A program made the translations under genes and the position numbers. Below, piece by piece: positions 18,241-26,210 of a stretch of DNA of 32,829 nucleotides (position 1 is its first letter; the number at the start of each line of letters is the position of its first letter). This DNA is from Kiritimatiellia bacterium (lineage in GTDB: Bacteria > Verrucomicrobiota > Kiritimatiellia > RFP12 > UBA3636), in the NCBI GenBank assembly GCA_017648065.1, contig JAGCJJ010000102.1:1-32829 (forward strand). Reading direction: 5' to 3'. Under the pieces are notes generated by a model. The model did not search any database and was not told the DNA's origin. It saw nothing but the letters and a program-made list of their open reading frames with translations.

Positions 18241-19242
18241 ATGAAACGTTATTTCTTTCCATCAACCGGTAATTTCTATAAAGCAAATCTACACTGCCAC
18301 ACAACATGTTCTGATGGCAGAATGACTCCTGAGCAGGTGAAGGAGCGCTACATGTCTCTTGGCTACTCAGTTATTGCTTATTCAGATCACAATGTGATGA
18401 TAGATCACTCTGATTTGAATGAAGAGAATTTCCTTGCGCTTACAGCTTATGAGGTAGATTTTATTACTCGTGATGCAAATCCACGTTGGCAGGCAAATAA
18501 GCTTTTGCATTTAAATATGATTTCTCCTAAGCCAAATGAGGACAGAGTTGTTTCTCCTCAGGTAAATGACAAGGGCGAGCATCGTGATGTAAATAGCATT
18601 CTTCCTCCTATGCGATATATTTGCAATACAACATTTGTAAACAAGATTATTGCAGCAGGAGCAGATAATGGATATCTTGTAACTATCAATCATCCAACTT
18701 GGTCAAATCTTGATTATGATGATTACAAAGGCTTGAAGCGTCTCTGGGCTATGGAGATTAATAACGGAGGCTGCTATGCTGAGGGCAGAGCAGATGATCC
18801 AAATGTGTACAATCTAATGCTTCGTGCTATGGGAACAAAGCTTTTCGCTGTTGGCACAGATGATAATCACAATGATTTGCCTCAGGATCATCCAGAGCAT
18901 CATTGTGGTCAGGCTTGGATTAATATTCGAGCAGAAAAGCTAGACTATGACACAATTTTTAATGCTCTTAAGAATGGTGATTTTTATTCTTCAGATGGAC
19001 CAGAAATTTACGAGTGCTACTACGATGATGAGGAAGATGCTGTACATGTAAAGTGTTCTCCAGCTCAGCGTGTTTTTGTAAATTCAGCAAGTATTTCTGC
19101 ACCAATGGCAACAGCAAAGAAAATTGGTGAAACAATTACTGAAGCAGTAATTCCATTAAATCATTTTGCTGTAGATTTTATCCGAGTTACAGTTGAGGAT
19201 AATAACCGCAGAATGGCTCACACAAACGCAATTTGGCTATAA
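18241..19242 (+). CDS. PHP-domain metallohydrolase, first of a tandem pair
   Basis: 333 residues, soluble. PHP metal-site motifs: NLHCHTTCSDG (H18, H20, D25), YSDHN (D49, H50), the acidic site in TAYEVDF, TINHPTWSNLD and VGTDDNHND. A beta-rich C-terminal part (~240-333, with DGPEIYECYYDDEE) follows. AGGGG precedes the ATG. PHP proteins are phosphoesterases that use two or three metals, cutting phosphate from sugars, histidinol phosphate or nucleotides. The position after rhaB hints at a sugar-phosphate or related substrate, but this is inference. Strongly similar throughout to the next gene. Confidence 0.85.
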   Translation: MKRYFFPSTGNFYKANLHCHTTCSDGRMTPEQVKERYMSLGYSVIAYSDHNVMIDHSDLNEENFLALTAYEVDFITRDANPRWQANKLLHLNMISPKPNEDRVVSPQVNDKGEHRDVNSILPPMRYICNTTFVNKIIAAGADNGYLVTINHPTWSNLDYDDYKGLKRLWAMEINNGGCYAEGRADDPNVYNLMLRAMGTKLFAVGTDDNHNDLPQDHPEHHCGQAWINIRAEKLDYDTIFNALKNGDFYSSDGPEIYECYYDDEEDAVHVKCSPAQRVFVNSASISAPMATAKKIGETITEAVIPLNHFAVDFIRVTVEDNNRRMAHTNAIWL

Positions 19243-19267
19243 CCTTTCAAAGAGATAAGAGGCATCT

Positions 19268-20278
19268 ATGAAACACAGCTTAATTCCAACAGAAGGAAAT
19301 TGGTATAGAGCAAACCTACACTGCCACACAACATGTTCCGATGGTAAGTTGACACCAGAGGAGGTTAAGGAGCGTTATAAGTCACAGGGATATTCTGTGA
19401 TTGCATTTTCTGATCACAATAAGATTATCGATCACTCAGATTTGAATGATGAGAATTTTCTTGCGCTAACTGCATTTGAGGTTGATTTTTCTGGAAAGGA
19501 TGGCGACCTCACATGGAATGCAAATAAGCAGGTTCACATAAATATGATTGCTCCTCGTGCAGATGAGGATAGAATTGTTGCAGCACGTTTACGCGATGAT
19601 GGAACATTTGATGAGGTCAAGGCAATACTTCCTCCTCAAAAGTACGTTTGTAATTCTCGCTTCATAAACAAGATTGTTTCTGCAGCTGTAGATAATGGAT
19701 ATTTAACAACGCTTAACCATCCAGCTTGGTCAAATCTTGATTATGAGGACTATGCATATCTGGAAAAGCTATGGGGTGTAGAGGTTGACAATGGGGGCTG
19801 CCGAGTAATTGGTCGCCCAGACAATGCAGATGTTTTAACAAAGATGCTTCGTGCATATCAGCGTGATATCTATCCAATTTCAGCAGACGATAATCACAGT
19901 GCATTTCCACTTGATCACCCACGTTGCTCCAGCTGCAGAGCATGGGTAAATGTTCGTGCTGAAAAGCTAGATTACACATCAATTTTTGAGGCATTGAAGC
20001 GAGGCGATTTTTATTCTTCAGCTGGCCCAGAAATTTATGAGTGCTACTATGATGATGAGGAATGTGCTATCCATATCAAGTGCTCACCAGCAGCAGCGAT
20101 ATATGTAAATTCTGATGGTATTACAGGAAATCAAGCATATCCTGAGCATATGGGAGAAACAATTACTGAGGCTGTGCTTCCTGTAAGACAAGATATTGGC
20201 TTTGAGTTTATTCGTGTTACTGTAATAGATGAAAAGGGCAACCGAGCTCATACAAAGGCTTTTTGGTTGAAAAAATAA
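19268..20278 (+). CDS. PHP-domain metallohydrolase, second of a tandem pair
   Basis: 336 residues, a clear paralogue of the preceding gene, colinear from end to end. The same motifs are kept: NLHCHTTCSDG, FSDHN, TLNHPAWSNLDYEDY and SADDNHS (TDDNHN in the neighbour). The C-terminal DFYSSAGPEIYECYYDDEE is almost identical. AAGAGG lies before the ATG, 25 bases after the previous stop. A tandem duplication with both metal sites intact suggests two related substrates or a heteromeric enzyme. Confidence 0.85.
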   Translation: MKHSLIPTEGNWYRANLHCHTTCSDGKLTPEEVKERYKSQGYSVIAFSDHNKIIDHSDLNDENFLALTAFEVDFSGKDGDLTWNANKQVHINMIAPRADEDRIVAARLRDDGTFDEVKAILPPQKYVCNSRFINKIVSAAVDNGYLTTLNHPAWSNLDYEDYAYLEKLWGVEVDNGGCRVIGRPDNADVLTKMLRAYQRDIYPISADDNHSAFPLDHPRCSSCRAWVNVRAEKLDYTSIFEALKRGDFYSSAGPEIYECYYDDEECAIHIKCSPAAAIYVNSDGITGNQAYPEHMGETITEAVLPVRQDIGFEFIRVTVIDEKGNRAHTKAFWLKK

Positions 20279-20303: not shown

Positions 20304-20948
20304 ATGGCAATAGAATGGAATTTACGTGGCAGGTCAAATACTTGTGGCTGCTGTGAAAAAGCTTTTGATGATGGAGAAAAGCTTTTTTCAGCAGTTGCAA
20401 TTACTGCTGCAGAAAGCATTGCTCCAATAATAGAAAAACTTGGAGGAAGTAAGGACGGCAAGGAATTGCCAGAGTATATTCGCTTAGATGTTTGCAAGGA
20501 GTGCAGAAAAACACTTCCTAAGGATGCAATAATCAGCTTGTGGCAGGGTGTGTACACCGCACCTGAGCCACCAGCTCCTGAGGCATTGCCTCGTGAGACA
20601 GCTGAGTCATTGCTACGTAAGCTTATTGAAGGCGAGGATAATCCAGATAATGTGCCAGTAATATTTGTTCTAGCAGTAATGTTAGAGCGCAAAAAGATAT
20701 TGATAGAGCGTACCGTACGTCATTTGCCAGACGGTACACTTATGCGCATATATGAGCATAAGAAAAATGGTGAAGTAATTTTCATTACTGATCCAAATCT
20801 TTCTTTAGAGCAGATACCTATTGTGCAGCAACGCGTGGCAGAGCTACTAGCTCCGCCACCTCCTGCACCAGTAGAGCAGCCAGCCCCAGCATCAGAGGAA
20901 ACCTCTGCTGAAGAGACACCAGCAGAAGCTCCTTCTACTGAAGAATAA
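20304..20948 (+). CDS. Zinc-finger protein with a disordered proline/glutamate tail, unknown function
   Basis: 214 residues. The N-terminal part carries CGCC (near residue 14) and CKEC (near 66), the usual arrangement of a split zinc ribbon, with YIRLDVCKECRK just before the second knuckle. The middle (~90-170) is helical and charged (ETAESLLRKLIEGED, FVLAVMLERKKILIERT). The last ~40 residues are rich in Pro, Ala and Glu (APPPPAP...) and probably disordered. I have the impression of a PVC-type hypothetical family, but assign no function. It is the last gene of the cimA operon, 25 bases after the PHP gene. Confidence 0.7.
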   Translation: MAIEWNLRGRSNTCGCCEKAFDDGEKLFSAVAITAAESIAPIIEKLGGSKDGKELPEYIRLDVCKECRKTLPKDAIISLWQGVYTAPEPPAPEALPRETAESLLRKLIEGEDNPDNVPVIFVLAVMLERKKILIERTVRHLPDGTLMRIYEHKKNGEVIFITDPNLSLEQIPIVQQRVAELLAPPPPAPVEQPAPASEETSAEETPAEAPSTEE

Positions 20949-22755: not shown

Positions 22756-23052
22756 ATGAAATGCGAAATTTGCCACATAAATGATGCAGAACAATCTATC
22801 GTTAAATCTGAAAATGGTTTAACGAAAGAACTTTATGTTTGTAAGTCATGCGCAAGCCAACATAAGATTGGACATGTTGGTAAATATTCTCTTGCTGATG
22901 TTCTTTTTGATATGTCTTCAACAAAACAACCAGAAGAACAAGAGCCACCTAAAATTGAACAAAAATGTCCATCATGTGGTTCTACATTTGCAAAAATTCG
23001 TAAGGAGAATCGCGTCGGTTGTCCAGATTGCTACAACTTCTTTGAAGACTAG
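22756..23052 (+). CDS. mcsA: McsA-like protein, N-terminal zinc-finger part, ending at an in-frame amber codon
   Basis: 98 residues with four CxxC knuckles: CEIC (3-6), CKSC near 30, CPSC near 70 and CPDC near 90. This is the double zinc-finger half of McsA, the activator of the McsB arginine kinase in Firmicutes, including the conserved RVGCPDCYNFF stretch. It stops at TAG (23050-23052). The downstream UVR-domain piece at 23062 is in the same frame, so if the TAG is read through, a single ~206-residue McsA results. The TAG falls within the helix that follows the last zinc knuckle. The stop is followed by C, a leaky context in some systems. It could be a nonsense mutation, a real gene split, or recoding. 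Confidence 0.75.
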   Translation: MKCEICHINDAEQSIVKSENGLTKELYVCKSCASQHKIGHVGKYSLADVLFDMSSTKQPEEQEPPKIEQKCPSCGSTFAKIRKENRVGCPDCYNFFED

Positions 23053-23061
23053 CTTGATAGA

Positions 23062-23376
23062 ATGGTTTCTATTTATTCTACTTCCAATGCTGATTTAGTT
23101 AATAACGATGTTAATGAATTAAGACAAAAACTTGATGCAGCTATCGCAAGTGAACGCTTTGAAGATGCAGCTGTACTTCGTGATCTGATAAATTCAAAAG
23201 AAAAAGTCAGCCGTCTCAGCCCATTTGCAAATAAGGATATCAATTCTTCTATGCCACCAGGATTACTGGATGCAATTAAGGATCTTGGTCTTGATATCGG
23301 TTCTATCTCAAAGCCTAGTGATGATGATTTAGATTTTGGCTTTGAGGATGATCCTCAGGATGATGATTCTAACTAA
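23062..23376 (+). CDS. McsA-like protein, C-terminal UVR-domain part, in frame after the amber codon
   Basis: 104 residues from the ATG at 23062, the fourth codon after the TAG. The UVR (UvrB/UvrC) motif is intact: VNELRQKLDAAIASERFEDAAVLRDLI, followed by an acidic tail (DDDLDFGFEDDPQDDD). There is no Shine-Dalgarno sequence, so expression would depend on re-initiation after the upstream stop or on read-through. Because the motif is undamaged and the frame stays open for more than 100 codons, the region is either still translated or was interrupted very recently. Confidence 0.65.
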   Translation: MVSIYSTSNADLVNNDVNELRQKLDAAIASERFEDAAVLRDLINSKEKVSRLSPFANKDINSSMPPGLLDAIKDLGLDIGSISKPSDDDLDFGFEDDPQDDDSN

Positions 23377-23435: not shown

Positions 23436-24821
23436 ATGAAAAAAACACAAAATAAAAAACAAAATTATTTCTCAAAGGAATATGAGAAGCTAATTAAAAA
23501 TATGTACAATGACCCAGACTTCAATAATGTAGTTGAGGGTGATGTAATTCTTTGTGCAAATTGCGTCGTTAGAAGAAATATTGATGATAAACCTTTTATA
23601 AATTCTGAGAATCTTGAAATTGCAGAGAATTTCTATAATAAATTTACTCCTGCATTTTCTAAAGCATTTAATTCCAAATATCGTGCTTTGCCTTTTGATA
23701 CAAAAGCATTTAATTCTACAAACCTGATGCTTACAGCAAGGTCTCCGTTTGTTGCAGCCTTATTAGGTGAACCAGCAATTGATTCGTATTATGCTTATTT
23801 GGCAGATGAACGTTCAGATGATTATTTTATGTGTAGCGATGTATATCGTAAAAAACCTTCTCGCTATACACTTCTATGTTACGATGACCATATAACACAT
23901 ATTGCCACATCTGACAATGTTGTTGATGCAATTAATACTGCTCTAAATGATTTAGATAAGTTTGCAAAAACAGAAGGTGTCAATTTTGCTGCTCATGATC
24001 ATTTTGGATATTTGACAACACGTCCAGAGTATTGTGGTACAGGTATTACTGTTGCAACACTTCTTGCTCTCCCTGCTTTGGCAATTCGTGGTGGATTAAA
24101 AGCTGTCCTTAATGGAGTGCAACGCCTTGAGTATGATGTTACTCCTGTAATTGAACCATTAAATAAAATTGATGCTATATTTGCTGAGAAGCAGCGTTCT
24201 GCTTTATTTAATAATGCAGCACCAGGTGCACTTTATTACATTTCTGTAAATGTTCCTCAAGAGAATTATGAGGAGTTTATTAAGCAATATACAGAAACTG
24301 TTTGTGCTGTAGCAAAAGCAGAATTAGAAGAACGCAGAAAGCTTGCTTTGGCTAATTTTAATCTTAATAATCCAGATAAGATTCAATCACTTGTAGCTAT
24401 CTATGCAAATAATGGAGAAAACTTCCCTTTGCATATTATTGAAGGATATATCTTGGGTTTAATAAAGCAAGGGTTGCTAGCACATTGTACATTATTTGAT
24501 ATTTTATCTGTATTAACAATTTTTAAATATTTACTTCAATGTGATGAAGCCTCAGGTGATAGTGTAGATAGTTTTTCCTCTTATGCTCTCTATATGAATC
24601 ATGAAAATTGCTGCCGCTGGAATGATAAGGATTTTGATATAAATTTAATTTATCACCATGTAGGTAATCATTTTATTGTTGATCAAATTGGAAGCTGTGA
24701 AAATATTAAAGATTTAAATCTTCTTTCAGAGCGAGTAGAAGAAATGGTTTGCATTGCAGACGAACTGGAAAAAGCTTCAAAAAAATCTAAGCGTTCAACA
24801 AAAGCAAAGAAGCCAAAATAA
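23436..24821 (+). CDS. McsB-like ATP:guanido phosphotransferase homologue, probable pseudoenzyme
   Basis: 461 residues. Colinear with McsB by several marks: DVILCANCVVRRNIDDKPF (McsB DIVLSSRIRLARNLxxxPF), a YDDHI block where McsB has NEEDH, GYLTTRPEYCGTGITVATLLALPAL (McsB [25 protein letters not shown]) and GALYYISVNV (McsB GNIFQISNQ). The catalytic features are lost: the Arg residues of SxRxR become N and V, the catalytic Glu of NEED is absent, the Cys of CPTNVGTG is Arg, the Arg after GTG is Thr, and the ATP-binding RGxYGE motif is missing. A helical C-terminal domain and a Lys-rich end (SKRSTKAKKPK) follow. Probably a non-catalytic phospho-arginine or partner-binding protein. It follows the McsA-like gene as mcsB does in Firmicutes. 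Homology is likely but by eye. Confidence 0.65.
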   Translation: MKKTQNKKQNYFSKEYEKLIKNMYNDPDFNNVVEGDVILCANCVVRRNIDDKPFINSENLEIAENFYNKFTPAFSKAFNSKYRALPFDTKAFNSTNLMLTARSPFVAALLGEPAIDSYYAYLADERSDDYFMCSDVYRKKPSRYTLLCYDDHITHIATSDNVVDAINTALNDLDKFAKTEGVNFAAHDHFGYLTTRPEYCGTGITVATLLALPALAIRGGLKAVLNGVQRLEYDVTPVIEPLNKIDAIFAEKQRSALFNNAAPGALYYISVNVPQENYEEFIKQYTETVCAVAKAELEERRKLALANFNLNNPDKIQSLVAIYANNGENFPLHIIEGYILGLIKQGLLAHCTLFDILSVLTIFKYLLQCDEASGDSVDSFSSYALYMNHENCCRWNDKDFDINLIYHHVGNHFIVDQIGSCENIKDLNLLSERVEEMVCIADELEKASKKSKRSTKAKKPK

Positions 24822-24848: not shown

Positions 24849-26210
24849 ATGAGAATAAAGGTATGTAAGTTCGGTGGTAGCTCAGTAGCTAGCGCAGAAC
24901 AAATTAAAAAGGTAATCAATATTATTACTAGCGATGTAGATCGTCGCATTGTAGTTGTTTCTGCTCCAGGTAAAAGATTTTCTGCAGATACAAAGGTAAC
25001 AGATATGCTGATTGCATTGGCAAACTGCGTTCTAGAGGGTCGCTCTACAGATGATGCAGTTGCAGCAATTCTTGACCGTTTTGAATCAATTCGCTCTGAG
25101 TTAGATTTGTCTCAAGCTCTAATGGAGACAGTTAAGCAAGAGCTTCTAAAGCGCATTAGCTTGCCTACAACAAATCCAGGTGCATTCATGGATGGTGTTA
25201 AGGCATTGGGTGAGGAATTTTCTGCTCGCTTCTGTGCTGAGGCATTTACTAAGCAAGGTCATCCTGCTGTTTATGCTGATCCAAAAGAGGCAGGTATGCT
25301 TCTTTCAGATGAGTATGGCAATGCACAGCTATTGCCAGAATCAATGGCATTGCTTCATGAATACCTTTCTTCAGTTAAAGAGATTGTTGTATTCCCTGGC
25401 TTCTATGGTTACACACGCACAGGCTCAGTTGTAACATTCTCTCGTGGTGGCTCAGATATTACAGGTGCAATTCTTGCTGCAGCAATTCATGCTGATGTAT
25501 ATGAGAACTTTACTGATGTTGATTCTGTTTATCCTGTAGATCCTCGTATTGTTCCAGAAGTAAAAGAGGGTATTAAGGAAATGACCTTCCGCGAAATGCG
25601 TGAGCTTTCTTATGCAGGCTTTGGCGTATTCCATGATGAAGCAATTATGCCAGCTGTTCGTGCAGGTATTCCTATCAATATTCGTAACACAAATCGCCCA
25701 GAGGAACCAGGTACAATGGTTCTTCCTCGCCGTAAGACAGTTCCTGGTCGCGTAATCGGTTTGGCTTGTGCAACTGGCTTTGGTACTCTTTATACAAGTA
25801 AGTATATGATGAATCGCGAAATTGGTTTTGGCGTAAAGCTATTAACAATCCTTGCAGAAGAGGGTGTTTCTTTTGAAACAATTCCTGCTGGTGTTGATAA
25901 TATGTCAGTGATTATTCGCGACTCTCAATTTACTGATGAGGTAAAGGCAAAGGTTTTTGCTCGTATACACACAGAGCTTAAGGTTGATGAGCTTGCTTAC
26001 GAGGGTGGTCTTGCAATTATCATGGCAGTAGGCGAGGGTATGCGCGGTGCAGCTGGTGTTGCTGCTCGTATTATGCAGGCAATCGCAGATGCAGATGTAA
26101 GCATTGAAATGATTAACCAAGGTTCATCAGAAATCAGCATGATGTTTGGTATCCGTTCAATCAATCTAAAGACTGCTGTACGTGCATTGTATAAAGAATT
26201 ATTCAAATAA
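24849..26210 (+). CDS. lysC: Aspartate kinase
   Basis: 453 residues. The N-terminal amino-acid kinase domain has KFGGSSVAS (7-15), the substrate-site TRTGSVVTFSRGGSDITGAILAAAI, ENFTDVDSVYPVDPR and SYAGFGVFHDEAIMPA. The last ~130 residues hold paired ACT regulatory domains (VKLLTILAEEGVSFETIPAG and GVAARIMQAIADADVSIEMINQGSSEISMMF). It makes aspartyl-4-phosphate, first step to lysine, threonine, methionine and diaminopimelate, and is presumably feedback-inhibited through the ACT domains. AAGGG precedes the ATG. It follows the McsB-like gene by 27 bases, so may be co-transcribed with it. Confidence 0.93.
   Translation: MRIKVCKFGGSSVASAEQIKKVINIITSDVDRRIVVVSAPGKRFSADTKVTDMLIALANCVLEGRSTDDAVAAILDRFESIRSELDLSQALMETVKQELLKRISLPTTNPGAFMDGVKALGEEFSARFCAEAFTKQGHPAVYADPKEAGMLLSDEYGNAQLLPESMALLHEYLSSVKEIVVFPGFYGYTRTGSVVTFSRGGSDITGAILAAAIHADVYENFTDVDSVYPVDPRIVPEVKEGIKEMTFREMRELSYAGFGVFHDEAIMPAVRAGIPINIRNTNRPEEPGTMVLPRRKTVPGRVIGLACATGFGTLYTSKYMMNREIGFGVKLLTILAEEGVSFETIPAGVDNMSVIIRDSQFTDEVKAKVFARIHTELKVDELAYEGGLAIIMAVGEGMRGAAGVAARIMQAIADADVSIEMINQGSSEISMMFGIRSINLKTAVRALYKELFK

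Follow-up and report, generated by a model that had tools for sequence, protein, structure and literature searches.

In the genome studied here (G000), which belongs to an uncultured, gut-type member of the Kiritimatiellia, the gene for the stress-response adaptor McsA is interrupted by a single in-frame TAG, a codon that serves this genome as a normal stop. The interruption is a genuine feature of the assembly and probably arose as a recent single-base nonsense mutation in this species or strain. The window, i.e., the whole stretch of DNA that was analysed, comprises 32,829 nucleotides, and the interrupted gene occupies the following positions in it:

22756-23376, plus strand: mcsA as a whole, read by translation as 98 residues, one TAG, 107 residues, and then TAA
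22756-23052, plus strand: mcsA 5′ part, 98 codons plus TAG, with two four-Cys zinc ribbons
23050-23052, plus strand: the in-frame TAG, codon 99 of mcsA, a sense codon in 20 aligned relatives
23053-23376, plus strand: mcsA 3′ part in the same frame, with a helical linker, a UVR motif, and an acidic tail
23062, plus strand: candidate internal restart ATG inside the 3′ part

Translation bears out the first-pass annotation, made from the sequence alone, in that one in-frame TAG splits McsA with the same frame on both sides, that the downstream half stays open for more than 100 codons with its UVR motif intact (107 residues, LDRMV...DDSN; Pfam PF02151, E = 2.5e-8), and that the TAG is followed by C, with three sense codons (CTT GAT AGA) before the ATG at 23062. 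The zinc-ribbon cysteines of the 5′ part (C3/C6/C29/C32 and C71/C74/C89/C92) are all eight found in the aligned relatives as well, and the second ribbon is the counterpart of the McsB-activating ribbon in S. aureus. McsA of Firmicutes, the UVR protein that activates the protein arginine kinase (S. aureus complex 8GQD), also has two Cys4 ribbons followed by UVR, and its gene likewise lies directly upstream of mcsB. In G000, the UVR motif is found, but the TAG stands between it and the second ribbon. The system further differs from that of Firmicutes in that CtsR is absent from the family genomes, and in that McsA has a long acidic tail that is common only to G000 and its congener G001.

The genus consists of three genomes (G000, G001, and G002), and G001 is the only congener with a readable mcsA. 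Its homologue encodes both halves as a single 214-codon ORF and aligns with the G000 gene across both (identity 70% in the 5′ half and 49-50% in the 3′ half), so the TAG lies inside one homologous protein, and a chance pairing of neighbouring ORFs was rejected as the source of the split gene. The TAG had also been placed in a helix where other McsA proteins have an ordinary residue, which agrees with the AlphaFold model of the intact G001 protein, where the counterpart residue, Gln99, falls within a helix spanning residues 97-110.

The TAG appears, from the alignment, to be peculiar to G000 and not conserved among the readable relatives, which are metagenome assemblies of Kiritimatiellae and Verrucomicrobiota. 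Among 21 aligned mcsA genes (G000 included), the site is a sense codon in all but G000: CAA (Gln) in G001, and Asp, Glu, or Ala in the 19 other Kiritimatiellae. As far as the data reach, this is the pattern (sense codons in relatives, TAG in this strain only) that the first-pass annotation had itself named as a refutation, here of its more interesting options, and it favours the fresh nonsense mutation among the options offered there. A profile search of 19 family genomes returned a full-domain match in 14 including G000, and none of the 13 others has a stop inside the mcsA domain; a TGA listed as an internal stop in G004 is its normal terminator according to the alignment. The closest relative of G000 is G002 (ClpC 99.6% identical), which was rejected as a decisive near-strain comparison since its assembly lacks the mcsA-mcsB-aspK-abcF stretch; the weak partial match of G002 in the profile search is not mcsA. 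No strain copies of the locus were found in IMG/VR.

Under the nonsense mutation, translation would halt at the TAG to give a protein of 98 residues that has both zinc ribbons and lacks the UVR helix hairpin, so that the activator ribbon would be retained and only UVR lost, and the 3′ half would be an untranslated remnant whose decay is yet to come. The state of that half is consistent with such an age. Conserved columns are kept to the same extent in G000 and G001 in the 3′ half (7/10 in each), and similarly in the N-terminal half (26/32 in G000 and 24/32 in G001). A neutral, untranslated 3′ half would gain about eight stop-creating changes per unit of neutral divergence, and the chance of its still being open is about 0.45 at a divergence of 0.1 and about 0.01 at 0.6, the latter standing for a TAG that arose shortly after G000 and G001 parted. 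So small a probability leaves two possibilities, a TAG of recent origin or a 3′ half that is still used. The intact and conserved 3′ half taken alone would fit continued translation equally well, which counts against the nonsense mutation; a young TAG in one genome is nevertheless the simpler reading. Fast evolution of the C-terminal half was rejected as evidence that decay has followed the TAG, since this half outpaces the N-terminal half in most other pairs (one relative pair being saturated in dS). Ordinary nonsense alleles and young bacterial pseudogenes share the features of this gene (a single stop, sense codons in relatives, and halves otherwise intact), and no tested feature separates it from them.

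The main rival is that the base is wrong in the assembly or its consensus, or that the metagenome consensus took up the variant of a minority strain while the mcsA of the population is intact; we regard this as unlikely, yet as deserving serious weight. One base would suffice, the 3′ half looks fully constrained, and the assembly of G000 is fragmented (102 contigs, 88% complete). What also counts against the nonsense mutation is that the closest relative lacks the region in its incomplete assembly; the TAG is known from one genome. Against an error stands a scan of a 683-kb sample of G000, used in place of the whole genome, in which neighbouring ORFs of one frame were paired where a lone stop parts them and each carries coding signal. 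It returned 11 pairs; the nine inspected outside the window were all ordinary adjacent genes, as was the second pair within it, and mcsA was the sole interrupted gene that it found. The rate of gene-breaking base errors in this assembly is therefore low. That the mcsA allele is real and fixed is our inference.

The first-pass annotation had also proposed a split gene, in which ribosomes stop at the TAG and re-initiate at the ATG at 23062 to make separate zinc-ribbon and UVR proteins. A stop and an ATG at this spacing (the ATG begins nine bases past the TAG) are near enough for termination-reinitiation, and both halves are intact. The ATG, however, matches an internal Met codon of the unsplit G001 gene and so did not evolve for the split, and the two-part arrangement is absent from all relatives compared. 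Its anti-Shine-Dalgarno duplex is weak (-1.4 kcal/mol): 66% of random internal ATGs do as well or better, and real starts average -4.4 kcal/mol. This argument is soft because the starts of mcsA (-2.7 kcal/mol) and mcsB (-0.7 kcal/mol) are also weak, and the split gene gains from the fact that mcsB likewise starts without a good Shine-Dalgarno sequence. The proposal thus found no positive support, and we consider a functional split improbable. More improbable still is its extension, a stable two-part McsA made by termination-reinitiation that would act, independently of phosphoarginine, as an adaptor for ClpC and for a pseudokinase derived from McsB.

Amber read-through or recoding to a full-length McsA isoform, the third option, is the least credible: 107 homologous codons lie open past the TAG, the base after it is C, and basal read-through would yield a trace of the full-length protein, but RF1 is intact in G000, TAG is the stop of 44 of the 282 ORFs that reach 300 aa (16%) in the 683-kb sample, where no other gene was found to be interrupted by TAG, and the suggested search for amber suppressor tRNAs found no CUA anticodon at the 41 tRNA sites of G000 or in that sample (assembly 88% complete). 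The 80 bases 3′ of the TAG have a predicted hairpin with a raw energy of -9.3 kcal/mol.

The nonsense mutation, which we take as the preferred reading, lies beside a partner gene that is itself unusual:

23436-24821, plus strand: mcsB-like gene, 461 codons, with a phosphagen-kinase fold; probable pseudokinase
24849-26210, plus strand: aspartate kinase gene (aspK), 93% identical to that of G001 and used as a rate yardstick

The mcsB-like ORF begins 59 bases past the end of mcsA, and the order mcsA-mcsB-aspK is the same in G001. The McsB-like protein has a Pfam match to ATP:guanido phosphotransferase (ATP-gua_Ptrans, E = 9.8e-9), a profile match covers nearly its full length, and the top Foldseek matches of its model are solved McsB structures (E = 4e-13, with a modest mean pLDDT of 61); the Pfam match and the McsB-first structural matches together identify the locus as mcsA-mcsB followed by aspartate kinase. 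The fold is that of the McsB protein arginine kinase (6FH1-3, 6TV6, and 8GQD), but the residues on which catalysis depends are gone. In phosphagen kinases, the catalytic carboxylates belong to the NEED motif and the lid Glu. In G000, the essential Cys is replaced by Arg, NEED by CYDD, the lid Glu by Ala, and SRxRLARN by CANCVVRRN, and in G001, Lys, GYDD, and Ala occupy the Cys, NEED, and lid Glu positions. None of the sampled family members keeps the Cys of GYLTxCP, where Asn, Asp, Arg, or Lys stands instead; in four more distant genomes of Kiritimatiellae and related groups, the Cys and NEED are kept in all four and the lid Glu in three. In S. aureus McsB, this Cys is described as catalytically essential and as being oriented by the C-terminal zinc finger of McsA (PMC12467219). 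With the essential Cys and the Glu of both NEED and the lid lost, the McsB-like protein is probably a pseudokinase, a state that, judged from these replacements, would predate the TAG, and we infer that McsB is inactive.

Such a pseudokinase may explain why loss of McsA is tolerated: with McsB apparently catalytically dead, the McsA/McsB pair would be under weak or altered constraint. The pair evolves fast, McsB unusually so. Between G000 and G001, dN/dS is 0.15 for the mcsA 5′ part and ranges from 0.15 to 0.37 over mcsA and mcsB, compared with 0.02-0.07 for aspK, abcF, and dus (85-99% identical), all values (NG86) being rough rankings only because dS is high (near 0.9-1.6). McsB is 42% identical between the two genomes and aspK 93%; McsB also varies in other congeneric pairs (45-64% identical), so its variability is a family trait.

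Loss of ClpC was rejected as the cause of the TAG, as G000 has a ClpC-like protein (88% identical to that of G001), which is its single Clp_N protein; most relatives have two. The ClpB-like protein of G001 and G002 is missing from the G000 assembly, probably through incompleteness. Some family members (L231, G008:C123, and similar ones) have a long Clp_N protein with an open frame of about 1,020-1,200 aa plus a shorter one. Elsewhere in the window, a DDE transposase (DDE_Tnp_1_4, 1177-2584) is spread over two overlapping ORFs in different frames, either a frameshifted IS copy or a case of programmed frameshifting; two tandem, similar PHP-domain-like proteins are encoded downstream of a rhamnulokinase-like gene (18241-20278); and 20304-20948, a stretch 97% identical at the DNA level in G002, encodes a protein of 214 aa that contains several CxxC pairs and matches no Pfam family.

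The nonsense allele is of minor significance in itself, and serves mainly to caution annotators against invoking recoding at mcsA. The degenerate McsB offers the better lead. In the genomes checked, a family outside Firmicutes retains linked mcsA and mcsB together with a ClpC-like protein, and its McsB, by the residues at the catalytic positions, appears to have lost what arginine phosphorylation requires. The question that follows is what role a kinase-dead McsB would have for ClpC.
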